From the NCBI RefSeq assembly GCF_000515255.1, contig NZ_KI911559.1, forward strand, positions 2,491,660 to 2,555,659: a DNA stretch of 64,000 nt, written 5' to 3'. Positions 27,223 to 44,372 of this stretch are shown here, in pieces. The position numbers and the translations under genes are program-made. This DNA is from Rhodovibrio salinarum DSM 9154 (lineage in GTDB: Bacteria; Pseudomonadota; Alphaproteobacteria; Kiloniellales; Rhodovibrionaceae). The notes beneath the pieces are model-generated. The model worked only from the letters and a program-made list of their open reading frames with translations. It was not told the origin of the DNA and did no database searches. Every line of letters begins with the position of its first letter. Position 1 is the stretch's first letter.

Positions 27223-27576
27223 CTACTTCCGGACGTAACTGCCGTCCGACTTCTTGAAGTAGGTCCCGACCGGCGCCTTCTCCAGGATCTTAGGCGCGTA
27301 GACCTTACCAACGGACTCAGGCGTGACGCCCTGCTGTTGGGCACGCTTCTCATAGACCTGACGGCGTTCCGCGTTGATCCGCTCAACGACCTGCTGGGCT
27401 TCAGCCGGGGGGGTGCCGACACGGACTTCGACGTAGCCGTCCCACCGCTCGGCGATCACGCCATCGGCGCGCAATTCATCCAGGGACGCAGCCTCGGCCG
27501 GTGTACTCGCGCCGAAGCTCACTAGGGCGAGGAACAGGCAGGCGAGGGCAGTCAGAAGGGTGCGGCGTGCGAACAT
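27223..27576 (-). CDS. ydbL: YdbL-family DUF1318 periplasmic protein
   Basis: This 117-residue exported protein has a signal peptide (MFARRTLLTALACLFLALVSFGASTPAEAA) and a DUF1318 domain: LRADGVIAERWDGYVEVR, INAERRQVYEKRAQQQGVTPESVGKVYAPKILEKAPVGTYF. In E. coli, YdbL is a periplasmic chaperone for the YdbH-YnbE intermembrane bridge. The MFARR start is preceded by a GGAGAG sequence; an in-frame ATG eight codons earlier is less likely. It is the last gene of ydbH-ynbE-ydbL, the same order as in enterobacteria. Confidence 0.88.
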   Translation of the reverse strand: MFARRTLLTALACLFLALVSFGASTPAEAASLDELRADGVIAERWDGYVEVRVGTPPAEAQQVVERINAERRQVYEKRAQQQGVTPESVGKVYAPKILEKAPVGTYFKKSDGSYVRK

Positions 27577-27625
27577 GAACGGCGGCTCTCCAAAGCGCAT
27601 ATCGGGACCTAAGATGTTGGCGTAT

Positions 27626-27853
27626 CTAGAAGATATCCGGATTCTCCTGGATGTCTTCCTCCGCCTTCTCCTCCAGCTTCACCCGGACCTCGGCGTCGAG
27701 CTTGACGTTGAGGTTGATGGTGATCGGCTTGTCCGGCGCTTCCACCTTCACTGTGGGTTGGCAGGCCGTGACAAGAAGGACCAGTGCGAGCAGCGGCGCG
27801 GCAGACATCTGGATCCCGGAAATGCGCACGAGTCTATACCTCCAAATTCGCAT
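27626..27853 (-). CDS. ynbE: YnbE-family outer-membrane lipoprotein
   Basis: This 75-residue lipoprotein has a lipobox LVTAC at about residues 27-31. The family core after the Cys is PTVKVEAPDKPITINLNVKLDAEVRVKLEEKAEEDI, ending in a short acidic ENPDIF. YnbE is anchored in the outer membrane and multimerises by stacking beta-strands onto the C-terminus of YdbH to complete an intermembrane phospholipid bridge. The first 15 residues before a second Met (MSAAPLL) may not be translated. The gene lies 83 bases after ydbH and 49 bases before ydbL. Confidence 0.85.
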   Translation of the reverse strand: MRIWRYRLVRISGIQMSAAPLLALVLLVTACQPTVKVEAPDKPITINLNVKLDAEVRVKLEEKAEEDIQENPDIF

Positions 27854-27936: not shown

Positions 27937-30840
27937 CTATTGGATCTCGATCGTTTCGGCGCCGCGGTTTTCAAGAGCCCGTTGGAGGAGATCGGTGGTC
28001 AGGGTTTGACCTTTCTGAAGAGCTTGCAAGATCGGGTTCAAGTCACCTGTTAGATTGATGTTGAACTTGAAGGGATAGCCGTCGAGCACATCGGGGTTAC
28101 GGCCCTGCATCGTGATTCCTAGGACCGGATTCCCCCCAGCCGGCTGGGTCACGGTAAGTGAGAGCAGGTCGTAGCGGAAATCCTTGAGCGCGCGGACCAT
28201 CAGCTGCACCGACTCGCCCTGGCTGGCGAGCGCATCCTGTGCGGCGCCGAACGTCACCCGGATGCGGCCCGTATCCACCGCGGCGAGCTTGCCCTGTTCG
28301 ATCTGGAAGCCATCGGGCCCCCAATGCAGCGGAATGTCCCCGGCAAGCGTGCCCTCGGCGCTCAACCCATCGACCTCCAGCAGACCGACCAGTTGGCTCA
28401 TCGACAGGTCGCGGACCTGGACGTTCAGGCGGTTGTCATCCCCCCATGGCCGCAAGGTCGCATCACGCACGAACACCTCGCCCTCAGCCAGGGTCCCATC
28501 TGCGCGGGCGAGGTGGATCACAGGGTCACCCTCCTCGCTGTCGACGTCGAAGAGGATCTCGACCCCTTCGAGCGGCACGCCGGCGGTCACGCTGTCCGCG
28601 GTCAGACGTTGGTTTGCGGACGTATCGGTCGGGGTCAGGCTGTCGAAGAACACGGTGCCCGAGAGCCCGGCAACCGTGGCGACAGCCGTTGTGAAGCTGA
28701 GGTCGGTCAGGGCCACCGTGGCGGTGTCGGTTAGACCGGCCGGTGTCCAGGACAGGGCGCCGCGCACGCCGAACTCGCCCTCGACATTGCGCACCTGCGC
28801 GCCGAGCCAGGGGGAAATGCGACCCGGCTGCACCCCACCGGGGACAAAGCTGGCATTGAAAGGCCCAATGGTGGCCTCGCCATTACGAGCATCTGCGTCG
28901 GTGCGGGCACTGAAGGGCAGGGTGATGTCCGTGCCCTTCACGATCTGTTGGCCCACCACGCGCCAGCCTTGGTCGTCGGTGGCGTGCAACTGCATCCACA
29001 GCAAGCTGGGCTTGAGCACTGCGGGGGTCGCATCGTGGGTCAGGTGGCCCAGAGTGATCAGTGCGACCGGATTGCCATAACTCTGCTTGAACTCCGCCGA
29101 GACCTCGCGCGCTTGGATCTGGAGGTCCGGAACGGTCAAGCGCCCGCCGTCGAAAGCGATACGCGCCTTGAGCGGCTGCAGGCTTTCCAGGGCCAGATCG
29201 AGCGGACCGGGCGTCAGACTGGTCCGCAGATTGTCAGCCTCCTGGCGCAACAGGGTGGCATTTAGCGTTCCCGGATCGGCTTTCACCTGCGCCTGCAACC
29301 GGCCGCTGGCGGCGGTTGCTTGGAGATCGGTGAACGTCAATGTGACCGGCGTGTCGACCTTGACCGGGCTGGTGTCGGGCAGTTCCGGAATCGTCAACGT
29401 GGCGGGGGCGGACAGGCCCACGCGGGTCCCCGCCAACGTGGCACGCACGGCAAGCGGCGCGGTCAGCCGCATGTCATTGATCCGCCTGCCAGACTGAGCG
29501 ACCGACAGACCGTCGGCATCCAACGTGCCGTCCAGCGTGAGCCCGCCAGGCTTGATCGTGGCCTGCCCATTGAAGGCGAACGCATCCAAGCGGTGCGGGC
29601 CATAGGCAAGGTCGCGGCCTTGCGCGTCCAGCAAATCGACGCGCGCCACCTGCAAGCCAAACCCGCGATCGAGCGTTCCGTTGGCGGCAGCCCGCACGCG
29701 CAGCTCGGGCGTGTTGCCATCCTCCGCCCCGCTGCCAGCCTGTACGCTCGCCCGGCCGTTCCAACGCCAAACGGCCGTATCGTCTGCGGCCATCTCCTGT
29801 ATGGCGTGCAACTCGACGAGTTCGTGTCCCCCGGACCAGGGAGAGAGGGTGAGCTGTCTGAATTCCCCGACCTGCGCCGCTGCGTCCGCCGGCAAACCAA
29901 GTGCCGCCAGCCGGTCGCCTTCCAGTGTGTCGGCCTGGACCTTGAGCGGATCGAGCAGCCGAACCACCAGGGAGCCATCGGAAGCCGCGAGATGCAGGGT
30001 CGTGCCCGCCTGAACGCCAGTTGCCAGATCCGGCAGATCCAGATCGGCCACGGATAGCTCCAGGTTCAGGCGGGAACTTGGTCGAATCAGGTTTTGCAGG
30101 GTCAGCGCACTGCCTGGTGTCGGAAACTGCAACTCGCCGGTCAGGGCAAAGTCGGCGTGGCCCGCCGTGGGTCGGTGCGGCACGTCGTCAGGCCATGGCA
30201 GCCGGGCGAGGGCGCTTTTTCCAGTCACTTTTAGGAAAACGTGCGGATCCAACTGCAGTTGCCGGGCATCCAGACTAAGATCGGCGGTGGTGTGCGGCGT
30301 ACGGGCCCGGCCACGCAGGGTGCCACGCATCTCCCCATCGCGACGGCCGATGCGCCCGGCCAGGGAAAGCTGCACGACCGACCGGGCACCCCGCACGTCG
30401 ACCGCCGCGTTGCGCAGAAGCACGGTCGGTAAACCATCGGGCACACGCGGTGTCGTAGATGGGCCGGTCTCCGCCGATTTACCGTTGGAGACTAAGCCAA
30501 GCACGCCGCCCATCGGTTGCTCGGCCGTCAGATCGACCGTCACGCGTGGCCCGTCAATCTCGATCCGGCCGATGCGTCCGTCGATCAAGGAGGCGGGGGT
30601 AAAGGCGACGGCGATCCGCGCGGCCTTAGGCGCGCCAGGGCCAAGGTCAATGTCGGTCAACTCCAACCGCTCGGTGGTCAGAGTTGCAACGGTAAGTTCG
30701 GCGTTGGGAAAGCCGCGTTGCGCCAGCAGTTGACGCGCCACCGCTTCGGCAACCTCCGCCCGGGCGAGCAGAAGCCCAGCCGCAAGCACGACGAGGAGCG
30801 TAACAACCGACAGAGGCAGCCAGAGCAGCCAGCGGCGCAT
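27937..30840 (-). CDS. ydbH: YdbH-family AsmA-like intermembrane lipid-transport protein
   Basis: This 967-residue protein has one N-terminal inner-membrane helix (MRRWLLWLPLSVVTLLVVLAAGLLLA) and a long periplasmic body rich in beta-strands, of the AsmA/TamB-like bridge type. The C-terminal portion, from FVRDATLRPWGDDNRLNVQVRDLSMSQLVGLLEVDGLSAEGTLAGDIPLHW to YPFKFNINLTGDLNPILQALQKGQ, is the DUF748-like YdbH core that contacts YnbE. YdbH, TamB and YhdP are partly redundant phospholipid carriers between membranes in E. coli. Length is close to the enterobacterial protein. It is preceded by a terminator hairpin closing the coxGSLM unit, so it probably has its own promoter. Confidence 0.88.
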   Translation of the reverse strand: MRRWLLWLPLSVVTLLVVLAAGLLLARAEVAEAVARQLLAQRGFPNAELTVATLTTERLELTDIDLGPGAPKAARIAVAFTPASLIDGRIGRIEIDGPRVTVDLTAEQPMGGVLGLVSNGKSAETGPSTTPRVPDGLPTVLLRNAAVDVRGARSVVQLSLAGRIGRRDGEMRGTLRGRARTPHTTADLSLDARQLQLDPHVFLKVTGKSALARLPWPDDVPHRPTAGHADFALTGELQFPTPGSALTLQNLIRPSSRLNLELSVADLDLPDLATGVQAGTTLHLAASDGSLVVRLLDPLKVQADTLEGDRLAALGLPADAAAQVGEFRQLTLSPWSGGHELVELHAIQEMAADDTAVWRWNGRASVQAGSGAEDGNTPELRVRAAANGTLDRGFGLQVARVDLLDAQGRDLAYGPHRLDAFAFNGQATIKPGGLTLDGTLDADGLSVAQSGRRINDMRLTAPLAVRATLAGTRVGLSAPATLTIPELPDTSPVKVDTPVTLTFTDLQATAASGRLQAQVKADPGTLNATLLRQEADNLRTSLTPGPLDLALESLQPLKARIAFDGGRLTVPDLQIQAREVSAEFKQSYGNPVALITLGHLTHDATPAVLKPSLLWMQLHATDDQGWRVVGQQIVKGTDITLPFSARTDADARNGEATIGPFNASFVPGGVQPGRISPWLGAQVRNVEGEFGVRGALSWTPAGLTDTATVALTDLSFTTAVATVAGLSGTVFFDSLTPTDTSANQRLTADSVTAGVPLEGVEILFDVDSEEGDPVIHLARADGTLAEGEVFVRDATLRPWGDDNRLNVQVRDLSMSQLVGLLEVDGLSAEGTLAGDIPLHWGPDGFQIEQGKLAAVDTGRIRVTFGAAQDALASQGESVQLMVRALKDFRYDLLSLTVTQPAGGNPVLGITMQGRNPDVLDGYPFKFNINLTGDLNPILQALQKGQTLTTDLLQRALENRGAETIEIQ

Positions 30841-30975: not shown

Positions 30976-31770
30976 TCAGCCTGCAGCCTGAACGGCGCGC
31001 TTCGCCATCACGGTGACCAGATGCGCCCGGTAGTCCGCACTGGCGTGCAGGTCGCTGTTAAGCTCGTCTGCGGAGACCTTGATGTCCTTGATCGCGTCCG
31101 GCGACCAGTTGGCGCTGAGCGCCTGTTCCATCTCCGGCATGCGGAAGGCGCAGGGGCCGGCGCCCGTGATGGCCACCCGCACGCCGCCATCGGTCTGGGC
31201 CACGAAAGCGCCGACGATGGCATAGCGCGACGCCGGATTGTGGAACTTGGCGTAGGCGCTTTTCTGCGGAACCGGGAAAGCAACCTCCTTGATCAACTCG
31301 CCCTCTTCGAGCGCCGTCTCGAACAGGCCCTGGAAGAAGTCATCTCCCGGAATCTCCCGCTTGTTGGTCCGCACGGTCGCCCCCAGGCCAAGCACGGCGC
31401 CCGGATAGTCCGAGGCGGGGTCATTGTTGGCCAGCGAGCCGCCGATCGTCCCACGGTTGCGCACCTGCGGGTCGCCGATCGCCCCAGCCAAGTTGGCGAG
31501 GCCGGGGATCTTCGCCTGCACCGTCTTGTCGTTGGCGACCATGTCATGCGGCGTCATGGCACCAACGACGATCTGGCCGCCTTCCTCCCGGATGCCTTTG
31601 AGGTCGGCGATGCCGGACAGGTCAACAAGCTGCGAGGGCGCAGCCAGACGCTGCTTCATCGTGGGCAGCAGGGTCTGGCCGCCGGCGAGCAGCGACGCCT
31701 CATCGTCTTGAGCGAGAATTTGCGCCGCCTCGTCCAGACTGCTCGGCCGGTGATAGTCGAACTGATACAT
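30976..31770 (-). CDS. coxM: Cox-type molybdenum hydroxylase, FAD-binding medium subunit
   Basis: This 264-residue subunit transfers electrons from the [2Fe-2S] clusters to FAD and on to an acceptor. FAD-binding motifs are SLLAGGQTLLPTMKQRLAAPSQLVDL (pyrophosphate loop, AGGQT) and GTIGGSLANNDPASDYPGAVLGLGA (the TIGG motif). The C-terminal CO_deh_flav_C domain has FHNPASRYAIVGAFVAQTDGGVRVAITGAG. It starts with MYQFDYHRPSSLDEA, a normal N-terminus. It is transcribed directly after coxL with a 16-base gap and is the last gene before a terminator. Confidence 0.94.
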   Translation of the reverse strand: MYQFDYHRPSSLDEAAQILAQDDEASLLAGGQTLLPTMKQRLAAPSQLVDLSGIADLKGIREEGGQIVVGAMTPHDMVANDKTVQAKIPGLANLAGAIGDPQVRNRGTIGGSLANNDPASDYPGAVLGLGATVRTNKREIPGDDFFQGLFETALEEGELIKEVAFPVPQKSAYAKFHNPASRYAIVGAFVAQTDGGVRVAITGAGPCAFRMPEMEQALSANWSPDAIKDIKVSADELNSDLHASADYRAHLVTVMAKRAVQAAG

Positions 31771-31786
31771 GGCGTCTTTCGCCTCC

Positions 31787-34150
31787 CTATTCGGCCGCCG
31801 GGGCCAGGCGCTGCTGCGCCAGGCGCCAGACCTTCTCGCGGGTTGCCGGCATCTGAATCTCCTCGGTGCCGAGCGCGTCGGTGATGGCGTTCATCAACGC
31901 CGCCGGCGCGGCGATCGCGCCGGCCTCGCCGCAGCCCTTGGCACCGACCGGATTGTGCGGGCAGGGGGTTTCAGTCATGCCGACCCGGAAAGAGGGCAGG
32001 TCGTCCGCGCGCGGCATGGTGTAGTCCTGGTAGGAACCGGTCACGAGCTGCCCACTGTCGGGGTCATAGACCGCATTCTCCAACAGCGCCTGACCGACCC
32101 CCTGGGCGATGCCGCCGTGCACCTGTCCTTCCACGATCATCGGATTGATCACCCGGCCGAAATCGTCGACGGCAACCCAGTCCGCGATCTCGGTCTCGCC
32201 AGTATCCGGATCGATTTCGATCTCGGCGATGTGCACGCCAGATGGGTAGGTAAAGTTTGCGGGATCGTAGAAGGCTGTCTCGTCCAGCCCCGGCTCCACG
32301 TCTTGCGGGAAGTCGTGCGGGACGTAGGCGGCGAAGGCGATCTCACCGATCGACTTGGTCTTATCCGTGCCAGCGACGCGGAAAGTGCCACTGTCGAACT
32401 CGATGTCGTCGACCGACGCCTCCAGCATGTGCGCGGCGATCTTCTTGCCCTTTTCAACCACCTTGTCGCAGGCCCGCAGGATCGCCGAACCGCCGACCGC
32501 CAACGAGCGCGAGCCGTAGGTGCCCATGCCCATCGGGATGCGGCCGGTGTCGCCGTGGACGATATCGACGTTGTTGTAATCGGTACCGAACTTGTCCGCG
32601 ACCATCTGGGCAAAGGTCGTCTCGTGCCCCTGGCCGTGGCTGTGGCTGCCGGTGAAGACCGAGATCGAGCCGGTGGCGTTGAAGCGCACCTGCGCACTCT
32701 CCCATAGGCCAACCCCAGCGCCGAGCGCGCCGACCACCTGCGAGGGCGCGATGCCGCACGCCTCGATGTAGGCGGAGAAGCCGATCCCGCGCAGCTTGCC
32801 CTTACGCTCGCTCTCCTGCCGGCGTTGGGCAAAGTTCGGGTAGTCGATCATCTTCAAGGCTTCGTCCAGCGCCAGCTCGTACTGGCCGCTGTCGTAGGTC
32901 AGGGCGACCGGCGTCTGATAGGGGAACTCGTCCGGCTGGACGAAGTTGCGCCGCCGGATTTCCGCCGGGTCCATGTTCATGTCCCGGGCACAGCGCTCGA
33001 CCAGCCGCTCGACGACATAGGTCGCTTCCGGACGACCGGCACCGCGGTAGGCGTCGACCGGGGCGGTATTGGTGAACACCGCCTTCACATTGCCGTGGAT
33101 CGCGGGGGTCTTGTACTGCCCGGCCAGCAAGGTGCCGTAGAGGTAGGTCGGCACGGCGGTGGCGAAGTTGGACAGGTAGGCGCCCAGGTTGGCCAGCGTG
33201 TCGACCCGCATGCCCAGGAATTTGCCGTCCTTGTCCATCGCCATTTCGGCGGTGGTGATGTGGTCGCGGCCGTGCGCATCGGCCTGGAAGGCTTCGGTAC
33301 GGGTAGCCAGCCACTTGATCGGCCGGCCGTTGAGCTTTTTCGACGCCCAGACGCAGACCGTTTCCTCGGCATAGCAGTAGATCTTGGAGCCGAACCCGCC
33401 GCCGACGTCCGGCGCGACCACGCGCACCTTGTGCTCTGGCAGGTTGAGCACGAAGGCGCACAGGATCAGCCGCAGCAGATGCGGGTTCTGACTGGTCGAG
33501 TAGAGCGTGTACTCGTCGGTCCCCGGATCGTATTCGCCGATCGCCGCGCGCGGCTCGATCGCGTTGGGGATCAGGCGGTTGTTGACCAACTCGATCTTTG
33601 AGACGCGGTCGGCCTTGGCGAAGGCGTCGTCGGTCGCCTGCTTGTCGCCGATCTCCCAATCGAAGCAGAGGTTGTCCGGCGCCTCGTCATGGACCTGTGG
33701 GCCGTTCAGCGCCTTGCCGGTCTCGACCACCGCATCCAGCGGCTCGTAGTCGACCTCGACCAGCTCGGCGGCGTCGCGCGCCTGGGCATCAGTCTCCGCA
33801 ACCACGAAGGCGACGTGGTCGCCGACGTAGCGCACCCTGTCGCGCGCCAGCGGCCAGTGAGGCGGTGCCTTGTGCGGATTGCCGTGCTTATCGGTGACGG
33901 TCCAGCCGCAAGGCAGCGAGCCGACGCCGTCGGCCTCCATATCCTTGCCGGTAAAGACCGCGACCACGCCCGGCGCCTGTTCGGCCTGGCTGGTGTCGAT
34001 GCTCTTGATCCGCGCATGCGCCATCTCGGAGCGCACAAACACCCCAAAAGCCTGACCCTGACGGTTGAAATCGTCGGTGTAGTGGCCGCGACCGGTCAGG
34101 AAGCGGTTGTCCTCCTTGCGCAGAACGCGCTGGGCACCTGTGTCCGGCAT
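31787..34150 (-). CDS. coxL: Form II CoxL-type molybdenum hydroxylase, large catalytic subunit
   Basis: This 787-residue xanthine-oxidase-family subunit holds the Mo-molybdopterin cytosine dinucleotide. The loop at residues 367-373 is AYRGAGR, the marker of form II (BMS-type) CoxL; true CO dehydrogenase (form I) has AYRCSFR and the copper-binding Cys, which is absent here. The general-base Glu is at about 742 in [14 protein letters not shown], and the Mo-cofactor segments [15 protein letters not shown] and [15 protein letters not shown] are present. The true substrate is therefore probably not CO; form II enzymes oxidise undetermined aldehydes or N-heterocycles. It follows coxS by 4 bases in coxG-S-L-M. 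Confidence 0.95.
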
Positions 34151-34154
34151 GACC

Positions 34155-34622
34155 TCACCCCCTCATGTCCTTAGCGGCATGCTGAATCGCCTTGACGATG
34201 TTGTGATAGCCCGTGCAGCGGCAGATGTTGCCCTCGAGCCACTCCCGAACCTCGTGTTCGTTCGGATCGGGGTTGCGCTGCACCAGATCGACCGCGCTCA
34301 TCACCATGCCGGGGGTGCAAAAGCCGCACTGCAGTCCGTGATGTTCCTTGAACGCGGCTTGCATGGGGTGAAGCTCGCCGTTCTTGGCCAGGCCTTCGAT
34401 CGTCGTGATCTCACAGCCATCGGCCTGCATCGCGAGCATGGTGCAGGCCTTCTGCGACGTGCCGTCGACGTGCACGACGCAAGCGCCGCACTGACTGGTA
34501 TCGCAGCCGACGTGCGTGCCGGTCAGATGCAATTCATTGCGCAGGAAATCCACGAGCAGTGTGCGCGGGTCGACCTCTCGGCTGACCTGCTGCCCGTTCA
34601 CCGTCATCGTCACGGTGGGCAT
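34155..34622 (-). CDS. coxS: Cox-type molybdenum hydroxylase, [2Fe-2S] small subunit
   Basis: This 155-residue iron-sulfur subunit has a plant-ferredoxin-like N-terminal cluster with Cys40, 45, 48 and 60 ([16 protein letters not shown]) and a C-terminal four-helix cluster domain with Cys99, 102, 134 and 136 ([23 protein letters not shown]). It shuttles electrons from CoxL to CoxM. The start at MPTVTMTV is fixed by GGAGG with five bases of spacing; the 23 upstream in-frame residues are rejected. Gene order S-L-M differs from the classical form I order M-S-L. Confidence 0.95.
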
Positions 34623-34627
34623 ACCTA

Positions 34628-34632
34628 CCTCC
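34628..34632 (-). promoter_or_regulatory. Shine-Dalgarno that sets the coxS start
   Basis: GAGGGAGGTAGGT on the minus strand places a GGAGG core (34628-34632) five bases before the ATG at 34622, deciding between this start and longer in-frame frames. Confidence 0.8.
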
Positions 34633-34799
34633 CTCATGTGGCCCATCCGGCCCACCTGGACTTTGGTGGCAGGCCGGCCTGTCGCGTTCATTCTTGCCCG
34701 GCTTACTGTCCGGGATTGTAGCTTAGCCTGTATTGGAGTGTGCGAGCGCCCCCATAGCAGGTCAAGCGCGCGTGCGGCGGTTGCAGACCTGGGGCGTGC

Positions 34800-35570
34800 T
34801 CACAACGCAAAGATGGCGAGCAGCGCGATGACCACCGCAATCAACCCCGCGACCCAGACAGGGTAGGGGACGATCATCTTGTCGTCGCGGGTACCCACGT
34901 CCTTGCCCTTCTCTTGCTGGGATGCCTGGGCAGCCTGCTTGGCCTGCGCATCGTCCCGGGCGGTCTGAGCGTTTTCGCCGGCGGTCTCCGGGTAGGTGCC
35001 GGCAGCCTGCGCAGCGGCGTGCGCCGCATCGGACTCGGCCTTCTGCGCCGAACCGGTCTCCGGCGTGCTCTGTTCCCCCTGAGCTGCCGCGGCGTCAGCT
35101 TGCGCCCCGGCCGTCTCGCCGGCTGCGCCGCCGCCAACGATGTCCTCAAACTTGTCGAAGAACTGTTTGGCGTACTTGTTCGCCGTCGACTGGATCAGTC
35201 GCTGGCCAAGCTGGGCCAACTTGCCGCCGACCTGGGCGTCCACCTTGTAGGACAGCTTGGTCTGCTCCGCATCGAGCTCTTCCAGCTTGACGTCGGCACC
35301 GCCCTTGGCGAAGCCCGCTGCACCGCCGCTGCCCTCGCCGGAGATCGTGTAGCTTTCCGGCGGGTTCAGGTTGGACAGGGTCACCTTGCCGGAGAAGCGC
35401 GAGTTCACCGGCCCGACCTTGGCTTTGACCTTCGCGGAGAACTCGTTGTCGTCGGACTGCTCGATCTCCTCGCAGCCCGGGATGCACTGCTTCAGGATCT
35501 CGGGATCGTTCAGGGCCTCCCAGACCTTCTGACGGTCGGCCTGGATGGTGTGCTCGCCGGTCAATTCCAT
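34800..35570 (-). CDS. coxG: CoxG-type SRPBCC protein with C-terminal membrane anchor
   Basis: This 256-residue protein has an N-terminal SRPBCC (CoxG/PF06240) lipid-binding fold: [76 protein letters not shown], and [38 protein letters not shown] low-complexity Ala/Gln/Glu linker of about 75 residues leads to a single C-terminal transmembrane segment ([23 protein letters not shown]). CoxG proteins recruit the hydroxylase to the membrane, where electrons enter the quinone pool. It is the first cox gene after livF (gap 195 bases). Confidence 0.92.
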
Positions 35571-35765
35571 CGCGCGGGTCTCCTCGAAAGCGGTTCGGGT
35601 GCCGGCGGACCGCGCTGGGTCTTGGAGAGCGCGGCCCAGAGCGCCGGAGGTGAAAGAGCGTTGAAGTCAACCTACCCTACGCTGTACGCGCGCGGTGGGG
35701 TGCGGCGCAAGCGCGCGGGTGTGATGGCTGTGGGTCCGTTCTGCGCCTTCACCGCAAGGGCAAGA

Positions 35766-36617
35766 TCAGCCGCCCAGGAACAGTTTTGCGACTTCGTCAT
35801 CGTTCAGCAGATCGGTACCCGGACCCGCCATAGCAAGCTGGCCGGCAACCAGGACGTAGCCGACGTCGGCGAACTCCAGACCCTTCTTGGCGTTCTGCTC
35901 GACCAGCAGAATGGTCTTTGCGTCGGTTTCCTTCAGGTCGGCCAGAATCTGGAAGACCATTTCGATGAACCGAGGTTCCAGGCCGATCGACGGCTCGTCG
36001 ACCAGCAACACCGACGGGTCCATAACCAGCGCCCGGCTGATCTCCAGCAGCCGACGCTCACCACCCGACAACACCCCAGCGCGCTGGTTCTTGCGCTCGG
36101 CCAGGCGCGGGTATTTCTCGAACACCCGATCGGCCGCCTGTTTGGCTTCCTTCTTCGTCTCCAGAAGATAGCCACCCATCAGCAGGTTTTCCTCGACGCT
36201 CAGGTCGGGGAACACGGAATTGTCCTGCAGGATGTAAGCGATGCCCGCACGGGCCAGCTTATCCTTGGGCGAAAGACGCGTCACATCGCGTCCCTGCACC
36301 TTGACCGCACCATCGAAGATGTTGGTGAAGCCGAACACCGAATGCAGCACGGTCGATTTGCCCGCACCGTTCGGCCCGATCAGGCAGAGCGACTGGCCCG
36401 AGCCGACCATTAGATCGAGGTCGTGCAGAATCTCCATCTTGCCGTACCCGGCGGTCAGGCCTGCGATCTCCAGATGCGGCTCCCCCCGGCACAACTCCTT
36501 CAGGCGCGTCCTGTCCGGGGCATTCTCGGACAACTGCCGAGCCTGTCGGGCGACCTCGTCAACCGACAGCGCGCTGGTCAGGCCGGTGCGTTCGGTGCTG
36601 CTATGCTGCGCCATCAC
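35766..36617 (-). CDS. livF: Branched-chain amino acid-type ABC transporter ATP-binding protein (LivF family)
   Basis: This 283-residue ATPase has Walker A LIGPNGAGKST, signature VLSGGERRLLEISRALV, Walker B VLLVDEPSIGLEP and H-loop LLVEQNAKKGLEFAD, which is the LivF subtype. About 48 N-terminal residues (from MMAQHSSTERTGLTS to RGEPH) precede the usual LEIAGLTAGYG start and have no counterpart in typical LivF. The ATG overlaps the livG2 stop (ATGA). It is the last gene of livK-H-M-G-F, located directly ahead of coxGSLM on the same strand. Confidence 0.92.
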   Translation of the reverse strand: MMAQHSSTERTGLTSALSVDEVARQARQLSENAPDRTRLKELCRGEPHLEIAGLTAGYGKMEILHDLDLMVGSGQSLCLIGPNGAGKSTVLHSVFGFTNIFDGAVKVQGRDVTRLSPKDKLARAGIAYILQDNSVFPDLSVEENLLMGGYLLETKKEAKQAADRVFEKYPRLAERKNQRAGVLSGGERRLLEISRALVMDPSVLLVDEPSIGLEPRFIEMVFQILADLKETDAKTILLVEQNAKKGLEFADVGYVLVAGQLAMAGPGTDLLNDDEVAKLFLGG

Positions 36618-37357
36618 TGGCCTCCCAAATAGGCGTCGATCACGCGTGGATCGGCGCGCACCGCCTCCGGGTCGCCGTCGGCCAGCATCTGGCCGTGCGC
36701 CAGGCAGTAGATCCGCTGGGCGAGCGACATGATCACGCGCATGTTGTGCTCGATCACCAACAGCGTGATGCCGAGTTCCCGGTTGGCGTAGACCAGTCGC
36801 TCCAGCAGGCCGTTGATCAGCGTCGGGTTGATGCCGGCTGTGGGCTCGTCGAGCAGCAGCATTCTCGGCTTGTTCATCAACGCCATAGCGAACTCGAGCA
36901 GCTTCTGCTGACCGAACGACAGCTCGCCTGCCTGCAGGTTGCGCTTGGCGTACAAGCCGACCAGTTCGAGCAGGTCGTAGGCTTCCTGGTAGTCCGCATC
37001 ATCGAAGTCGGCGAGCATCGTGCCCAACGTCTCGTTCGTGTGCGGGCGCGAGATCAGCATGTTCTCGACACAGGTCATCTTTTTGTAGATGCGCGTCTGC
37101 TGGAAGGTGCGCAGCAACCCGCGCCGGGCGATGTGCGGCACGCGCAAACGGGAGAGCTCTTCGCCACGGAATGTGATCGAGCCTGTGTCGATCGGGTGGT
37201 AGCCGACGATCGAATTGAACAGCGTGGTCTTGCCCGAACCGTTCGGCCCGATGATTCCGACGATCTCGCCGTCGGCCACCTGCAGGGAGATGTCCTGGTT
37301 CGCCCGTATGCCGCCGAACGACTTGGAGACATGACTAACCTGAAGCAGCGGGGTCAT
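36614..37357 (-). CDS. livG: Branched-chain amino acid-type ABC transporter ATP-binding protein (LivG family)
   Basis: This 247-residue ATPase begins MTPLLQVSHVSKSFGGIRANQDISLQVADG and has Walker A IIGPNGSGKTT, signature LSFGQQKLLEFAMALM, Walker B MLLLDEPTAGINP and H-loop LLVIEHNMRV, plus the long LivG insertion with RTFQQTRIYKKMTCVENML. The ATG overlaps the livM2 stop and its own stop overlaps the livF ATG (both ATGA), so the three genes are translationally coupled. The longer in-frame reading into livM is a shadow. Confidence 0.93.
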   Translation of the reverse strand: MTPLLQVSHVSKSFGGIRANQDISLQVADGEIVGIIGPNGSGKTTLFNSIVGYHPIDTGSITFRGEELSRLRVPHIARRGLLRTFQQTRIYKKMTCVENMLISRPHTNETLGTMLADFDDADYQEAYDLLELVGLYAKRNLQAGELSFGQQKLLEFAMALMNKPRMLLLDEPTAGINPTLINGLLERLVYANRELGITLLVIEHNMRVIMSLAQRIYCLAHGQMLADGDPEAVRADPRVIDAYLGGQ

Positions 37358-38445
37358 CGGCTGCCTCCCTGTTGGGCGGGATCCGTGCTGACGGCGGCGC
37401 TCTCGTCGACCGTGTAGCCGAATTTCTCCGGCCACTTGTCGCGGAGGTAGCCGACAATGCCTTTGGGGAAGAACACCACGATCAGAACGATCAGCAGGCC
37501 GAGCGCCACCCGCTGCCAGCCGAGCAGGTAGGTCCAGAACAGTTCCTGGGTGACGTGGAAGACGGCCGCGCCCACCACCGGGCCCCAAAGCGTGCCCTTG
37601 CCGCCGAGCACGGTCATCAGGACCATCCACACGCCGTAGGTGACGCCGGCGAAGGCGACCGTACGGGGATCGATGAAGCCGACGATGTTGCCCACGATGC
37701 CGCCGGCGAAGGCGGTGAAGAAGGCGCTGACGCACCAGGCCACCGTCTTGTAGCGGGTGGTGTGCAGGCCCATCGCCTCCGCCTTGTCCTCGTCGTCGCG
37801 GATCGCGTTGAGGGCGAGACCGAACCGGCCGCGGCGCAGGCGCTTGAGCGTGAAGAAGGTCGCCACCGTAAGCACGAAGGCGATGTAGTAGAACACCTGG
37901 GTGCGGTCGAAGCTGCCCGGGAACTGCGGCGGCACCATGCCGGAACCCGCCCCGATCCAATCCCAACCGGCCGCAAGTTCCGCCGCCGCGATGCCAAGGC
38001 CCAAGGTGCCGATGGCGAAATAGTGCCCCCGGAGCCCCAGCATGCCGAGACCCAGGACGCCCGCGAGCACGACCGAGAGGAGCGCGCCTGCGACCATGCC
38101 GGCGGCCAGACCGATGAAGTACTGGCTCGCCGTCAGCTGCAGCTCCAATCCTCCCTTGGCGGCGGTATAGGCGGCGACGTCGGCGTAGAGACCGACCTGC
38201 ACGACCGAGGTCGCATACATGCCGACGCCGAAGAAGACGATGTTACCGAACGAGTTATAACCCATCTCGCCGCCCATCACGTTCCAACACAGCGCGATGA
38301 CGACGAGCACCCAAAGGAAGGCGAACTGGGTCGTGAACGCCGGAAACACCAGCGGCGCAGCGATCGAAATGGCGAGCAGGGCGCCGTAGCCGCCGGTCAG
38401 GCGCACTGTCGTGCCCCTGGCAAAGCCGCGCGACGGCGCGGTCAT
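37354..38445 (-). CDS. livM: Branched-chain amino acid-type ABC transporter permease (LivM family)
   Basis: This 363-residue polytopic permease carries LivM landmarks: WNVMGGEMGYNSFGNIVFFGVGMYA near the N-terminus, LGLRGHYFAIGTLGLGIAAAELA, the cytoplasmic RRGRFGLALNAIRDDEDKAEAMGL loop and VLGGKGTLWGPVVGAAVF. A hydrophilic tail (KFGYTVDESAAVSTDPAQQGGSR) follows the last membrane segment. The ATG overlaps the livH2 stop (ATGA). It would form the membrane pore with LivH2 for the substrate bound by the protein encoded at 39495. Confidence 0.93.
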   Translation of the reverse strand: MTAPSRGFARGTTVRLTGGYGALLAISIAAPLVFPAFTTQFAFLWVLVVIALCWNVMGGEMGYNSFGNIVFFGVGMYATSVVQVGLYADVAAYTAAKGGLELQLTASQYFIGLAAGMVAGALLSVVLAGVLGLGMLGLRGHYFAIGTLGLGIAAAELAAGWDWIGAGSGMVPPQFPGSFDRTQVFYYIAFVLTVATFFTLKRLRRGRFGLALNAIRDDEDKAEAMGLHTTRYKTVAWCVSAFFTAFAGGIVGNIVGFIDPRTVAFAGVTYGVWMVLMTVLGGKGTLWGPVVGAAVFHVTQELFWTYLLGWQRVALGLLIVLIVVFFPKGIVGYLRDKWPEKFGYTVDESAAVSTDPAQQGGSR

Positions 38446-39341
38446 CTCAGCACCTCCCGCTTGCGCTGCAGACGCAGGTTGCGCACCACCAAAATCACCA
38501 CCAGCAGCAAGAACACGAACGCGTTCTGGTATTCCGCGCCCAACATGAAACCGGCGAACTGCTCGGCCACGCCGAGGCCGAAGGAGGACGCGATCACCCC
38601 CGGCAGATTCCCTAGACCGGCGACCACCACGATGGTGAAGGAGCGCACCGTATAGATCAGACCCTGGTAGGGGTGGATGGTGAAGGCCATCACCACGATC
38701 GCGCCGGCCGCGCCGCATACGGCCGCGTTCAGGCCGTAGGTAAAGGCATACACCCGATCGGTGTCGATCCCTAGGATGCGTGCGGCCCGTGGGTTCTGGG
38801 CGGTGGCGCGGATCGCCTGGCCCATGCGCGAGGAACGCATGAAGACCGTCAGCACCACCGCGATCACACCCGCCAGCACGAAGCCCAGCACCTTGGTCTG
38901 GCTGATCGAGACCATCGAATTGAAGAAGTACCAGCTCCCCAGGCCGCTCTCGAGCGTACGCACGTCAGAGCCGAAGATCTGGTTCATCAGCTGCTGAAAC
39001 AGGATCGACAGTCCGAAGGTGGCCAGGATCGAGGTGAACAGGTCACGATCGACAACCCGGAAGATAATCGTCTGATAGGCTAGCCAGCCGATCGCGAACA
39101 GCACGGCGGCGGCGACAGGGATGCCGAGCAGGGTGGGCAGGCCCCACTGACTAAGCGCGAAGGCGACGAAGCCGCCCAGCATGACCCATTCGCCCTGTAC
39201 AATGTTGATGATGTTCATGACGCCCCAGACGAGCGCCATCCCGTAAGCGGCGAGTGCGAACACGCCGCCCAGCAGAATGCCTTCGATTACCAGTTGAAGA
39301 GCGAGCGGCGGTGCCTGCAGCAGAAGGGACAGGTTATCCAT
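38442..39341 (-). CDS. livH: Branched-chain amino acid-type ABC transporter permease (LivH family)
   Basis: This 299-residue permease has the classical LivH start: LQLVIEGILLGGVFALAAYGMALVWGVMNIINIVQGEWVMLGG. It also has RSSRMGQAIRATAQNPRAARILGID, the conserved cytoplasmic loop that couples to the ATPases, and RSFTIVVVAGLGNLPGVIASSFGLG. It lies 153 bases after the binding-protein gene. That gap contains an imperfect hairpin (CCGTATGCC / GGCAACGTACGG around 39381-39405) that may let the binding protein be made in excess over the permease, as is common in such operons. Confidence 0.93.
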   Translation of the reverse strand: MDNLSLLLQAPPLALQLVIEGILLGGVFALAAYGMALVWGVMNIINIVQGEWVMLGGFVAFALSQWGLPTLLGIPVAAAVLFAIGWLAYQTIIFRVVDRDLFTSILATFGLSILFQQLMNQIFGSDVRTLESGLGSWYFFNSMVSISQTKVLGFVLAGVIAVVLTVFMRSSRMGQAIRATAQNPRAARILGIDTDRVYAFTYGLNAAVCGAAGAIVVMAFTIHPYQGLIYTVRSFTIVVVAGLGNLPGVIASSFGLGVAEQFAGFMLGAEYQNAFVFLLLVVILVVRNLRLQRKREVLR

Positions 39342-39494
39342 TTCTCAGGTCACGGCGTCCTTGTGCGCGCAACGCAGCCCTCCGTATGCCTCAGGCAACG
39401 TACGGGGGACCGCATCGCATTACGGCGGGTAAAAGGGGGCCGGCGGGGTGGTCCACACCGAGCACCGGTCACCCGGCGGAGCAGTTTAAAGCGC

Positions 39495-40739
39495 TTAACG
39501 CTCGGACCACTTCGGCATCGGGTAACGCACCTCGGCGCTGGCATACTCGGTCGGAGCAACGACCTTATATTCGCCGTCCTGAACCTGGTAGAGCACCATC
39601 GGCTTGGCGGTGTTCTTGCCGGTGTCGTCGAAGTTCACCGGGCCGTAGAAGGTCATCAGATCGGTCGCCTGCAGGGCGTCACGCACCGCCTTCTTGTCCA
39701 GGCTGCCCGCCCGCTCGAAGGCGTCCTTGTAGACCAGCACGGCCGCTGCGGATTCCGCCGACTGATACGGCGGCGCATAGTCATAACGCGCCTCGAAGTC
39801 CGCTGCGAAATCGCTGGCCGAACCGAAATAATCGTCGCTGTAGGTCAGCGACGGCGCCCACTGGCTGGCGCACAGCGTGTATTCAGCCTTGTCGCCGAAC
39901 TTCTGGATGATCTGCGCGCTGTCGCAGTGGGTCATCGCCAGCATCGGTACGTCGACGCGCATTTCGGACATCTGCCGGATCGCCAGGGCCGCGCCCTTGG
40001 AGTGGCCGGAGACGACCATCATGTCCGGGCTCTTCGCCTTCACTTTGATCAGCGTCGAGGACATGTCGTTGATCTCCGGCGGCAGCTTGTCGTCGACCAC
40101 CAGTTCCATGCCGTGCTCTTCGGCGTCGGCAATCACGCCGGCGCGGATATCCTGGCTGAAGGGGTCGTTTTCGAAAACACCGGCGATGGTCATCTCGGAC
40201 GGGTCCATGCCGTCCTTCTCCGCCAGTTCCGCGCGCAGCTGAACCGCGCTCGCGAGATACTGCTCGCTGGTCGACAGCACGGCGAACAGGTACTCGTACC
40301 CCTGTGTGAACAGCGAACGGGAAGCGCCGTTCGCTTCCACCATCGGCACGCCGTACTGCTCGGTGACCGGGGCGATCGCCTTGGTCATACCGGACGAGTA
40401 GGGGCCCAGGACGAACTTCACGCCGTCCTGCTGGATCAGCCGCTCGGCGAGCTGTGCGCCACGTGCCGGCGTGGACTCGTCGTCGTAGTAAGTGACCTCA
40501 AGCTTATAGGTCTTGTCGCCGACTTCGACGCCGCCCATCGAATTGATGCGGTCGACGGCCATGTCGTAGCCGTTCTTGGTGTGCCCACCGTTCGTGGAGT
40601 ACTTGCCGGTGAGGGAAATCGCGGCACCCAGCGTGATGGTGCCGTCGAACTGCGCATCGTCGGCTGCCGAGACCGGTGCTGTGATTGCACACGCGGCCAA
40701 ACCGGCAAGCCCGACGGTCAGCTTGCGGAAAGCAGTCAT
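39495..40739 (-). CDS. livK: Branched-chain amino acid-type ABC transporter substrate-binding protein
   Basis: This 414-residue periplasmic receptor has a signal peptide (MTAFRKLTVGLAGLAACAITAPVSAADD). Family blocks are ITLGAAISLTGKYSTNGGHTKNGYDMAVDRIN (ligand carboxylate loop), LGPYSSGMTKAIAPVTEQYGVPMVEANGAS and the C-terminal lobe AVLVYKDAFERAGSLDKKAVRDAL. The first gene of the operon, it has a strong ribosome binding site (GGGGAGG eight bases before the ATG). The protein resembles receptors for amides, urea derivatives or amino-acid-like molecules, but the ligand cannot be assigned by eye. Being upstream of coxGSLM, it may bind the substrate of that hydroxylase. Confidence 0.92.
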   Translation of the reverse strand: MTAFRKLTVGLAGLAACAITAPVSAADDAQFDGTITLGAAISLTGKYSTNGGHTKNGYDMAVDRINSMGGVEVGDKTYKLEVTYYDDESTPARGAQLAERLIQQDGVKFVLGPYSSGMTKAIAPVTEQYGVPMVEANGASRSLFTQGYEYLFAVLSTSEQYLASAVQLRAELAEKDGMDPSEMTIAGVFENDPFSQDIRAGVIADAEEHGMELVVDDKLPPEINDMSSTLIKVKAKSPDMMVVSGHSKGAALAIRQMSEMRVDVPMLAMTHCDSAQIIQKFGDKAEYTLCASQWAPSLTYSDDYFGSASDFAADFEARYDYAPPYQSAESAAAVLVYKDAFERAGSLDKKAVRDALQATDLMTFYGPVNFDDTGKNTAKPMVLYQVQDGEYKVVAPTEYASAEVRYPMPKWSER

Positions 40740-41684: not shown

Positions 41685-41990
41685 TGCAGATAGCGCCGGC
41701 GGGTCGCACGAGAGGGGACTCGGAATGCGCACGTATGCAAAGGACCGTAGGGCAGTCCGCTTGTTAACGCATTACGCGTTTAGAACGACGTTGAAGCGAT
41801 ATTTGCGACCAGAACGCGACATTCAGCATTCGGGCGGGCGCAAACGCCTTGCATGGGATGGACAAAATCAAGCCCAACCGGAATCGCTTGCGTGCGGGTT
41901 GCGCTGATCAGTAGGTTGCGGGCTTCAAGGGGGCAGGTCCGACGACCTCATGACAACAACCGAACCGAAAGGCGAGGCCGTCAGCCGACC
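41685..41990. other. Divergent intergenic region between the LuxR-type gene and mnhA
   Basis: These 306 bases should hold promoters for both genes. An AT-leaning stretch at 41760-41805 contains GTTAACGCATTACG, and a GC-rich leader precedes mnhA. No gene, riboswitch or clear operator was recognised. Confidence 0.4.
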
Positions 41991-44372
41991 ATGATGTCAT
42001 CTGCCGTCATATCCGGGTTCGTGTTGGGCGCGCTGGCGCCATGGCTGACCCGGAGGTTGGGTGCGTACGTGCACTGGCTGCTGGCACTGTTGCCAGCCGC
42101 ATTGTTCGCCTATTTCGCGCAGTTCCTGCCGACGATCGCAGCGGGCAACACCGTTCGCGTCGCCAGCGAATGGGTGCCGGGGCTGGACGTTACGCTGTCG
42201 TTCTACCTGGACGGGCTCAGCCTGATCTTCGCCTTGCTGATCACCGGGATCGGCACCTTCATCGTGCTGTACACCGGCGGTTACCTGCACGGGCACCATC
42301 ACCTCGGCCGGTTCTTCCTCTACCTGCTCTCGTTCATGGGCTCGATGCTGGGGCTCGTGCTGGCGGACAACGTGATCACGCTGTTCGTCTTCTGGGAGCT
42401 GACCTCGATCACCTCGTTCCTGCTGATCGGTTTCAACCACACCGAGGCGAAGTCGCGCCGCGCGGCGATGCAGGCCCTGGTGGTCACCGGCGGTGGCGGA
42501 CTGGCGCTGCTGGCGGGTCTGCTGATCATGGCCGCGGTCACGGGGACGACCGAGCTGTCCGAGATTCTGGGTAGTCCCGAGGTCCTGACGTCTTCGGCGC
42601 TCTACGTGCCGATGACGATTCTGGTACTGCTGGGCGCCTTCTCGAAATCGGCGCAGTTCCCGCTGCACTTCTGGTTGCCCAATGCGATGGAAGCGCCGAC
42701 CCCGGTCAGCGCTTACCTGCATAGCTCGACGATGGTAAAGGCCGGCGTCTATCTGCTGGCTCGGCTCAGCCCCGGGCTTGGGGGCACGGAGCTGTGGTTC
42801 TATGCGTTGGTGGTTTTCGGCGCGGTCACCATGCTGGTCGGCGGCATCCTGGCGATGCGCCAGAGCGACCTCAAGCTGGTACTCGCCTATACCACCGTGG
42901 CCGGTCTTGGCATCTTGACCATGCTGATCGGGCTCGGCGGCGACTACGCCTTCAAGGCGATGGCGCTGTTCCTGATCACGCACGCCTTCTACAAGGGCGG
43001 TCTGTTCATGGTCGCCGGCGCGATCGACCACGGCACCGGCACCCGTGACGCCACGCGCCTGGGCGGCCTGGCGCGGCCGATGCCGGCGACTTTCGCCGCA
43101 GCCGTCCTGCTCGGCCTGTCGATGGCGGGGATCATCCCGTTCGTCGGCTTCATCGCCAAGGAGGTGATGTACGAGGCCACGCTCCATGTCGGCGCGACGG
43201 GCGTTGTTCTGGTGACAGTCGCGGCGGTATTCGGCAACGCCTTCAACGTGGTCGCCGCCGGGATCGTCGGGCTGCGCCCGTTCCTGAGTTCGCACAAATC
43301 GACCCCGCACCATCCTCACGAAGCGCCGGTGTCGATGCTCGTGGGGCCGGTCTTGCTGGCCGCACTCGGGTTGTTCTGCGGTGTCGCCTTTCCGCTCACC
43401 GCCGAGTTCGTCGCCGCGCCCGTGATGGCGAGCTTGAACGGACTGCCGGTCGGCGACCAGGCGGCGGAACTGTACCTCTGGCACGGCATCAAACCGCCCC
43501 TGATTCTGTCACTTGCAACCCTGGCCCTGGGCGCGCTCGGTTTTGTCTTCTGGCCGCAGATGCGCGCCGGGATCGCCGCCATCTTGCGTGCGATCGGCTG
43601 GGGACCGGACCACGGCTACGACCAGACCATAACGGGCCTCGAACGACTGGCTTACGCCGTCACGCGGGTGCAGCAAACCGGCTACCTACGCCACTATCTG
43701 ATGGCGACCTTCCTCGTCGCCGCCGCATTCATCCTCGGGACCCTGATCTGGGTTGGGGGGCTGCCAACCGACTTCCGTTCGCCCACGCTGCTCCTGCCAG
43801 AGGTGATCGCGCTCGCGCTCCTGATCGGTGGTGCAATCGTGGCAACGATCGTGTTTAGCCGCGTTGCGGCGGTCGCGGCCGTTAGTGTCGTCGGCTACGC
43901 GGTCGCCCTGTTGTTCCTAATCTTCTCCGCGCCGGATCTCGCGTTCACGCAGTTCATGGTGGAGACCCTGACGGTGGTCATCCTGGTGCTGGTGTTGATG
44001 CGCGTGCCGCTGGAAGTTAGTGCCTTGCGGACCCGGGCCGGTCGGCTTCGCGACGGCCTGATCGCCATTGCGGTCGGCACCGCGGTCAGCCTGGTACTGC
44101 TGACGACAACGCAAGGACCGCTCGACCTGCGGCTCAGCGAGTTCTTCATCGAGAACTCCGTGCCGGTTGCCCATGGCCACAACATCGTCAACGTGATCCT
44201 GGTCGACTTCCGTGCACTGGATACGCTGGGCGAGATCTTCGTGGTCACGGTGGCCGGTCTGTCCTGTTTCGGACTGCTGCGCTTAACGCTATCGCGGCGC
44301 AAGGCAGCCCGGGCATCGATCCAGCCAGCGCAGCGGACGGACTCGGGCGACATGCCGGGAGGTGAGGCGTGA
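41991..44372 (+). CDS. mnhA: Mrp-type Na+(K+)/H+ antiporter subunit A
   Basis: This 793-residue membrane subunit is related to respiratory complex I NuoL. It has many hydrophobic segments with [74 protein letters not shown] (proton-pumping antiporter motif with conserved Lys/His) and [22 protein letters not shown]. The C-terminal segment ([22 protein letters not shown]) is the MrpA-specific domain. Length matches MrpA without a fused MrpB. Two adjacent ATGs (41991, 41994) are possible starts. It is the first gene of a seven-gene operon. Confidence 0.94.

Follow-up and report, generated by a model that had tools for sequence, protein, structure and literature searches.

A form II Cox hydroxylase locus with an adjoining Liv-type transporter in Rhodovibrio salinarum, and the replacement of coxL by aldehyde oxidoreductase-like genes in relatives

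The 64,000-nucleotide stretch of Rhodovibrio salinarum DSM 9154 analyzed here (the window) carries on one strand the genes of a Liv-type ABC transporter followed by those of a Cox-type molybdenum hydroxylase. A preliminary description had read this run as livK-livH-livM-livG-livF-coxG-coxS-coxL-coxM, had assigned CoxL to form II on account of the motif AYRGAGR, and had proposed that the enzyme acts on an imported small molecule. All nine genes gave a strong Pfam match in this order (Table 1), and AYRGAGR was confirmed at residues 367–373 in the translation of CoxL. Comparison across genomes (G numbers), families (f) and genera (g), as labeled in this analysis, revealed that genes very probably encoding a tungsten-type aldehyde oxidoreductase (AOR) have repeatedly taken over the position of coxL, and that the two catalytic subunits are almost completely separated in the genomes sampled.

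The enzyme cluster is longer than previously described and continues past coxM through ydbH, ynbE, ydbL, coxD, coxE and xdhC to a mobA-like gene, ending at position 22029. The xdhC gene is split over two overlapping reading frames, the mobA-like gene product is probably a fusion protein, and the name ynbE is our assumption from the position of this gene beside ydbH and ydbL. The region upstream of livK contains a gene for a LuxR-type regulator and an antiporter operon, which we take from its sequence to be mrp-like. The intergenic gaps measure 195 bp between livF and coxG, 108 bp between coxG and coxS and 4 bp between coxS and coxL; a single transcript spanning liv and cox genes is hence not required. 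A promoter scan found 0 promoters, with 1.5 expected.

Table 1. Genes of the Liv and Cox run in the window
Gene	Product	Position	Strand	Support
livK	periplasmic binding protein, Liv/HAAT-type ABC transporter	39495-40739	-	Pfam Peripla_BP_6 5e-55
livH	permease	38442-39341	-	Pfam BPD_transp_2 8e-33
livM	permease	37354-38445	-	Pfam BPD_transp_2 1e-30
livG	ATPase	36614-37420	-	Pfam ABC_tran, BCA_ABC_TP_C
livF	ATPase	35766-36617	-	Pfam ABC_tran
coxG	SRPBCC protein	34800-35570	-	Pfam COXG 5.6e-40
coxS	[2Fe-2S] subunit	34155-34691	-	Pfam Fer2, Fer2_2
coxL	form II Mo hydroxylase large subunit	31787-34150	-	Pfam MoCoBD_1, MoCoBD_2
coxM	FAD subunit	30976-31770	-	Pfam FAD_binding_5 7.6e-50
ydbH-like		27937-30840	-	Pfam YdbH-like 4e-57
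ynbE-like	lipoprotein	27626-27853	-	homologues at same position in relatives, at most 89% identity
ydbL-like	DUF1318 protein	27223-27600	-	Pfam DUF1318 6e-23
coxD-like	AAA ATPase	26165-27172	-	Pfam AAA_5; NCBIfam MadB_ATPase 269 bits (cut-off 475)
coxE-like	VWA protein	24732-25973	-	Pfam VWA_CoxE 2.5e-66
xdhC/coxI	N-terminal part	24391-24735	-	Pfam XdhC_CoxI 3e-27
xdhC	Rossmann part	23660-24394	-	Pfam XdhC_C 4e-41
mobA-like	molybdenum cofactor nucleotidyltransferase	22029-23660	-	Pfam NTP_transf_3 5e-42, residues 351-514 of 543

The assignment to form II was upheld. An alignment of CoxL to 1n5w shows Gly instead of the Cys in the form I motif (A/S)YRCS(F/L)R, which we take to be the active-site residue; the GCGEAG region, presumably that of the catalytic Glu, is retained. 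Against the NCBIfam model of aerobic carbon monoxide (CO) dehydrogenase (TIGR02416) CoxL reaches 679.5 bits, below the cut-off of 991. The top NCBIfam family for CoxL, CoxS and CoxM alike is glyceraldehyde dehydrogenase, all of them under the cut-off (alpha, NF041018, 689.5 bits for CoxL with a cut-off of 790; beta and gamma, NF041019 and NF041020, 228.8 and 239.7 bits with cut-offs of 350 and 290). The solved chain nearest to CoxL by sequence is 8uem_A (1e-193). CoxG scores 136.7 bits against PF06240, above the threshold of 22.2 bits, is similar to the solved CoxG 8uds_D (2e-12) and possesses a C-terminal tail that reads as hydrophobic in the translation and is a probable membrane tether. CoxS harbors eight cysteines (C63, C68, C71, C83, C122, C125, C157 and C159), which we take to be the cluster ligands.

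With the form I Mo-Cu CO dehydrogenases (M. smegmatis 8uem and O. carboxidovorans 1n5w) the enzyme shares the three-subunit plan, CoxG and presumably also similar maturation genes; it differs from them in lacking the active-site Cys and in the gene order coxS-coxL-coxM, which we take to be that of form II, instead of M-S-L. With the form II 'CO dehydrogenase-like' Mo hydroxylases (coxSLM), for which papers reportedly cite King and Weber 2007, it shares AYRGAGR, the S-L-M order and the adjoining coxDE and xdhC genes. The available text of PMC13240472 gives M-S-L as the form I order and describes the activity of form II as unresolved. The difference from form II loci elsewhere is the transporter: in 385 genomes drawn evenly from across the class (the class sample) this CoxL is present in 142, and 115 of these have no LivK orthologue. 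As a further sign of a molybdenum cofactor enzyme, moaC and moeA lie just upstream of coxG in G008, with look-alike genes at the same place in G006.

A better clue to the reaction than the transporter comes from relatives in which the catalytic subunit has been exchanged. In G031 and G032 of family f7, livKHMGF-coxG is followed by genes for a 4Fe-4S protein (aorA), a 615-residue AOR and an FAD protein (aorC), and coxM begins 10 bp after coxS with no coxL in between. The 615-residue protein of G031 matches AFOR_N (1e-78) and AFOR_C (1e-136) in Pfam. G033 has the same order on a contig that starts in livH and ends in a 90-residue coxD fragment, and in G035 livKHMGF leads into genes for an Fe-S protein and AOR, the stretch that was read being free of cox genes. 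Elsewhere in G031 and G032 no CoxL orthologue was found, only paralogues of 41–50% identity.

A different family of the class, f88, has the AOR module inside the cox operon. The order is coxS-aorA-AOR-aorC-aorX-coxM in G423 and coxS-aorA-AOR-aorC-moaD-aorX-tupBCA-coxM in G254 and G447, with G449 being the same except that no moaD was called; the tup names are our assumption from similarity. In nine of the 12 f88 genomes with this AOR (AOR-A, defined below), coxS shares the strand of aorA-AOR and ends about 0.6–0.7 kb before AOR, and in the other three AOR lies about 230 bp from the contig start (G445, G448) or is itself partial (G455). Tungstate-transporter-like genes adjoin the module in G254, G447, G448, G449, G445 and G087. 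The exchange can be followed within a single genus, as G140 and G450 possess coxS-coxL-coxM, whereas in G423 the AOR module stands between coxS and coxM. Between G423 and G140 the identity is 88% for CoxS and 84% for CoxM. The CoxM tree groups G423 with G140 and G450 (100/99), while the AOR tree groups it with genus g249 (97/89); a catalytic module has thus moved into a resident cox operon. On the CoxM tree the fewest state changes are six, or four without two long rows; AOR entered the cox locus in separate lineages. Two further genomes have coxS and coxM with no coxL between them: in G318, with AOR elsewhere, the cluster reads coxG-coxS-coxM-ydbH-ynbE-ydbL-coxD-coxE-xdhC, a gap of 3 bp separating coxS from coxM, and in G087 coxS and coxM, a second distant cox-like set and coxG are all divergent to the AOR module. 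The ydbH-ynbE-ydbL trio, which the coxL-less G318 cluster also contains, stands between coxM and coxD in many relatives.

The nature of the replacing enzyme can be judged from its close match to a characterized system. The replacement genes combine AFOR_N and AFOR_C domains, an Fe-S small subunit and an FAD subunit in one operon, and this three-subunit layout of f7 and f88 matches that of AorABC of Aromatoleum aromaticum EbN1 (PDB 8c0z), with MoaD-like genes in both operons. AOR-A aligns with Aromatoleum AorB (8c0z_A) at 1034 bits over all 615 residues and AorA with 8c0z_C at 7e-80. The two differ in their surroundings, since here coxS, coxM or coxG are retained around AOR and coxL is gone, while the available text of PMC6365974 makes no mention of cox genes for EbN1. 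According to the same text, the purified Aromatoleum complex oxidizes many aldehydes. Judged from these similarities, the gene in place of coxL very probably encodes an aldehyde oxidoreductase. Among the matches listed, no publication reports by its title a replacement of CoxL by AOR or a link between Liv and form II enzymes, which is weak evidence as most subscription literature was outside reach; the available main text of a 2026 survey of tungsten oxidoreductase neighborhoods (PMC13328260) contains no word beginning with 'cox'.

We then compared the distribution of both catalytic subunits. AOR-A was first defined by at least 65% identity to the f7 query, and a tree was made afterwards, in which clades A and B split at 100/100; clade A covers 23 of the 27 AOR-A genomes and its sister clade B comprises nine rows. 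No CoxL orthologue was found in the genome of any clade A row, while clade B coexists with CoxL in five of its nine rows (G034, G016, G017, G040 and G138). CoxL orthologues were called at E-value thresholds of 1e-170 for the order (61 genomes; 64–100% identity), 1e-265 for the class and 1e-200 for f88, and genes cut by contig ends can escape detection, as is seen for CoxL of G015. In the order, CoxL is present in none of the six AOR-A genomes (one AOR being partial) versus 53 of the 55 others (p = 5e-7), and two genomes have neither (G019 and the 72%-complete G029). The class sample gives 0/12 versus 142/373 (p = 0.005), with a size-stratified Z of -3.2. Among the 21 genomes of f88, four possess CoxL, 12 AOR-A, five neither and none both (0/12 versus 4/9, p = 0.02). 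Pooled without double counting, 458 genomes contain CoxL in 193 and AOR-A in 27 cases with no clear overlap, G455 being a possible exception; the naive chance is 2e-7 for no overlap and 4e-6 for at most one, with G455 counted. As the genomes are related, all of these p values are optimistic; the in-place swaps outweigh the statistics as an argument.

Since coxL was replaced by a gene that very probably encodes an aldehyde oxidoreductase, the simplest reading is that coxSLM catalyzed the same reaction. The NCBIfam scores, which for all three Cox subunits are highest with glyceraldehyde dehydrogenase though under the cut-offs, point in this direction too. We thus favor, with a probability of about 0.58 for the reading as a whole, that the form II enzyme would be a CoxG-tethered molybdenum aldehyde oxidoreductase. 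The coxGSLM product would be cytoplasmic and matured by the products of coxDE, xdhC and mobA; CoxL would convert R-CHO and H2O to R-COOH, and the electrons would pass through the [2Fe-2S] clusters of CoxS and then the FAD of CoxM, with CoxG acting as the tether to the membrane and its quinones. LivKHMGF would import a small polar compound, either the aldehyde or its precursor, and would act as an optional feeder that is kept or lost by lineage. CoxG of form I is described as a quinone-binding membrane protein (available text of PMC13240472, citing Kropp et al. 2025), and that of an archaeal glycerol-3-phosphate dehydrogenase as a membrane anchor not required for electron transfer (available text of PMC11962113). 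In genus g21 of f7, coxG is retained between livF and the AOR genes, so the tether idea would fit both enzymes.

Several observations weigh against this reading. The replacement by AOR could have followed a metabolic change and need not have preserved the reaction, and tungsten oxidoreductases with a defined role mainly but not exclusively oxidize aldehydes (available text of PMC13328260). In G444, an intact coxSLM is directly preceded by aorC-moaD-aorX-tupBCA, and an AOR of 63% identity lies on a different contig; this genome may be an intermediate of the swap. The AOR-A genome G455 harbors a 58% CoxL-like fragment (residues 204–780) at a contig edge, which falls between the f88 orthologues (61–65% identity) and paralogues (43–51%); taken as an orthologue, it changes the f88 count to 1/12 (p = 0.12). 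The separation becomes non-significant with one genome per family (median p = 0.32), and of the size classes in the class sample only that of at least 3.5 Mb is significant by itself (0/4 versus 105/134, p = 0.003; 0/3 versus 9/124 below 2 Mb, p = 1; 0/5 versus 28/98 at 2–3.5 Mb, p = 0.32). At the thresholds used, both CoxM and CoxS are absent from 11 of the 27 AOR-A genomes (G030, G035, G041, G093, G118, G156, G264, G353, G410, G430 and G445); in G318 a 47% CoxL-like gene lies just upstream of AOR; and 28 of the 53 CoxL genomes of the order lack a LivK orthologue.

The remaining 16 AOR-A genomes retain CoxM, and we wondered if CoxS and CoxM are still functional beside AOR. In f88, CoxM is present in 11 of the 12 AOR-A genomes, on a contig separate from AOR in the six AOR-A genomes of genus g249. 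All eight cluster cysteines are kept in CoxS beside AOR, with G032 being readable only outside a masked stretch, and excluding G032 50 of the 52 positions that are invariant in Cox-type CoxS are retained; for CoxM, 52 of 59 invariant positions are retained in all 15 AOR-type rows. The ratios of nonsynonymous to synonymous substitution rates are 0.10–0.32 for CoxM (8 pairs), 0.08–0.14 for CoxS (4 pairs, and 0.36 in a pair with the masked row) and 0.03–0.08 for AOR (5 pairs), so that all three are under purifying selection, CoxM more loosely than AOR, in a comparison without a Cox-type control. Two readings remain for the retained subunits, which either relay electrons from AOR or are partners of another CoxL-like protein, as the one of G318 might use the orphan coxS-coxM. 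Tentatively, and on the strength of gene arrangement and conservation, the AorA-AOR proteins of f88 and f7 may have taken over the CoxS/CoxM relay, together with CoxG if present, after deletion of coxL, in which case the swap would fix the form II reaction as aldehyde oxidation. AOR-A itself does not depend on such a hybrid, since at the thresholds used 11 AOR-A genomes lack both CoxS and CoxM.

How closely the transporter belongs to the enzyme was examined within the order, where LivK orthologues were defined by at least 58% identity with one further match of 37% left out. CoxL is present in 53 of the 61 genomes (52 full matches and the G015 fragment at a contig edge), LivK in 31 and both in 25. 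In 20 of the 31 LivK genomes the liv genes lie on the same contig as cox genes, in one (G035) the AOR genes follow Liv immediately, in four (G010, G013, G024, G041) Liv and cox are unlinked and in six (G011, G015, G027, G029, G040, G055) the contig edge is reached first. LivK and CoxL are mostly 5–9 kb apart; in G034 (14 kb) and G058 (13 kb) other genes lie between them. In G018, G026 and G033 the contig breaks within the Liv operon and the remaining liv genes lead into coxG, in G022 the contig stops after coxG, in G031–G033 the genes behind coxG are those of AOR, and G020, G023, G051–G054 and G057 were assigned as linked from coordinates only. In both same-family relatives coxGSLM is present, this LivK is absent and mrp adjoins coxG. 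On a quick LivK tree (72 rows) the linkage state changes at least 10 times, and does so too with loci cut by contig ends scored as open (63 rows, of which 18 linked); the linked rows are scattered with modest support (the window with G002; G018; G138; a main clade). The Liv-cox run exceeds chance in the order, and the link is real, recurrent and optional.

Outside the order the picture is different. LivK occurs in 36 of the 385 class-sample genomes, and of 36 neighborhoods read (35 genomes) one has coxGSLM, divergent from the LivK operon (G138), four from a single genus have just a coxG-like gene, the second LivK of G138 is accompanied by a distant AOR-family gene and 30 have neither, five of these 30 ending within 6 kb downstream of LivK. 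Among the best 80 of 579 confirmed LivK loci, 26 of which end within 6 kb downstream of LivK, cox genes occur at four, three of them matching genomes of the order; the taxa include Gammaproteobacteria, NC10, Desulfobacterales and SAR11-type genomes. CoxL is present in 27 of the 36 LivK genomes of the class sample versus 115 of the 349 others (p = 1.8e-6; size-stratified Z 3.4; median p 3e-4 with one genome per family, without size control). By size the counts are 3/4 versus 6/123 below 2 Mb, 7/11 versus 21/92 at 2–3.5 Mb and 17/21 versus 88/117 at 3.5 Mb and above, where the association is gone (p = 0.78). Hence, genome size confounds this comparison and accounts for much of the class-wide association. 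The idea of a transport unit in the preliminary description therefore stands in so far as the arrangement recurs within the order, where linkage is partial; it does not extend to the same-family relatives, which lack LivK, or to genomes outside the order, where the operon mostly stands alone. Unlinked transporter and cox genes in relatives, which by the preliminary description itself would speak against the idea, are seen outside the order and to some extent within it. In the 1.2 Mb genomes G431 and G157 the Liv operon and a coxGSLM-xdhC-mobA cluster are both kept, 27–54 kb apart. G138 has a second LivK orthologue (62%) with no other Liv genes adjoining; the distant AOR-family gene (28%, E 3e-45) lies 218 bp downstream, and upstream are genes that we take to resemble 2-oxoacid:ferredoxin oxidoreductase. 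This neighborhood may be counted as support for the aldehyde reading. On plasmids nothing close to LivK or AOR was found; the 6 records for LivK and the 16 for AOR are without exception below 60% identity.

These data bear on two alternatives for the transporter. Liv and cox could be unrelated neighbors in a conserved chromosomal block, with the transporter carrying a common nutrient, a real contender that we consider somewhat improbable. Liv is indeed widespread and mostly alone, also in genomes of 1.2–1.3 Mb and in other phyla, and mrp-like, histone-deacetylase-like and TauABC-like genes without evident link remain in the block as well; yet several families agree in the side of coxG on which Liv lies, Liv adjoins AOR too where AOR replaces Cox, and linkage changes repeatedly on the LivK tree. 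The opposite view, that livKHMGF serves specifically to import the substrate of CoxSLM and forms one functional unit with this enzyme, was the preliminary description in full. Linkage in 20 of 31 genomes, the recurrent changes on the tree even with cut loci left open, the divergent arrangement in G138 and the class-wide co-occurrence speak for it, but we regard it as unlikely given the many CoxL genomes of the order without LivK, including both same-family relatives, the scarcity of cox genes at class-sample loci (5/36, four with a coxG-like gene only) and among the best 80, and the loss of co-occurrence in large genomes. Of the proposal of an imported substrate, 'aldehyde precursor' has gained independent support from the AOR swap, whereas import through Liv has become optional.

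The ligand of the transporter was approached through LivK. The five-gene set is complete by Pfam, with one binding protein, two permeases and two ATPases. LivK scores 85 bits against NCBIfam LivK (cut-off 477) and 69 bits against UrtA (cut-off 492.75), reaching neither. Its AlphaFold2 model, built from 47 sequences with a predicted local distance difference test score of 90.9, matches type I binding proteins, the nearest being 8wch (SAR11_0655, L-pyroglutamate; 24% identity, Z 41.2, root-mean-square deviation 4.5 over 375 residues), in a tie with 3h5l (Z 41.1). The system shares the five-gene layout and the type I periplasmic-binding fold with Liv/HAAT transporters, among which 8wch is the nearest solved binding protein. 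G138, A139, H246, H271, C272, C290 and W294 of LivK are invariant in the 47 sequences, and A139, H246 and H271 align (4n0q) to the positions of Thr102, Tyr202 and Glu226 in LivJ, which we take to be amino-acid contacts. As the LivJ-type contacts thus appear to be replaced, an ordinary alpha-amino acid is doubtful as the ligand; at 24% identity the nearest fold, 8wch, cannot fix the ligand either. Across the neighborhoods outside the order no common partner gene of LivK was found. In two genomes of f116, whose cox cluster sits elsewhere than Liv, LivK is flanked by a TauD-like dioxygenase and sulfoacetaldehyde acetyltransferase (Xsc; over the cut-off in one, with similar gene sizes and starts in the other), which hints at sulfonate or aldehyde chemistry in the vicinity of Liv. 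At four loci in three genomes (one annotated), LivK or Liv is followed by a kinase/aminotransferase-like gene, and genes that we take from their sequence to be TRAP-transporter-like are located upstream of livK in f7 and, in G318, downstream of AOR.

With regard to the reaction itself, CoxSLM might instead hydroxylate an N-heterocycle or similar ring, AOR having come in only through a pathway change. Quinoline 2-oxidoreductase and 6-hydroxypseudooxynicotine dehydrogenase (1t3q, 7dqx) are among the solved relatives; this alternative is nonetheless doubtful in view of the entry of AOR into the cox locus in separate lineages, the lack of clear co-occurrence of CoxL and AOR-A, and the primary, if not exclusive, role of tungsten oxidoreductases in aldehyde oxidation. 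A CO dehydrogenase, as the overall similarity to form I CoxL (8uem, 1n5w) might suggest, is rejected as highly improbable on account of the missing Cys (AYRGAGR versus AYRCSFR) and the NCBIfam score below cut-off.

The preliminary description was right in its observation and half right in its interpretation. Under the reading favored here, the gene replacement seen in relatives gives the substrate question a concrete answer, namely aldehyde. The enzymes known as form II 'CO dehydrogenases' are common with an unsettled substrate, which blurs surveys of CO oxidation, and the swap of coxL for AOR is a natural genetic experiment that points to the substrate class with the same operon, the same genus and two metals. 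Should CoxS and CoxM work for the tungsten enzyme, two unrelated families of metalloenzymes would have had their subunits recombined in one complex. The Liv operon offers a second handle on the substrate through a binding protein with a measurable ligand.

Further genes of the window accompany the locus. The mrp-like antiporter operon (41853–48070, plus strand), TauABC-like ABC genes and a histone-deacetylase-like gene (48102–51078) occur near the liv/cox block in several families. In the genome of the window no AOR was found at E 1e-40, despite two genes on the minus strand that match the TupA- and TupB-like genes next to AOR in G254 at identities of 57% (5350–6204) and 68% (7005–7709) and possibly serve tungstate or molybdate uptake. 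Another Liv-type transporter, the second of the window, is encoded at positions 1–5058 (minus strand), where the run also includes a gene for an AMP-binding ligase; the permease, the ATPase and the ligase were recognized by Pfam.

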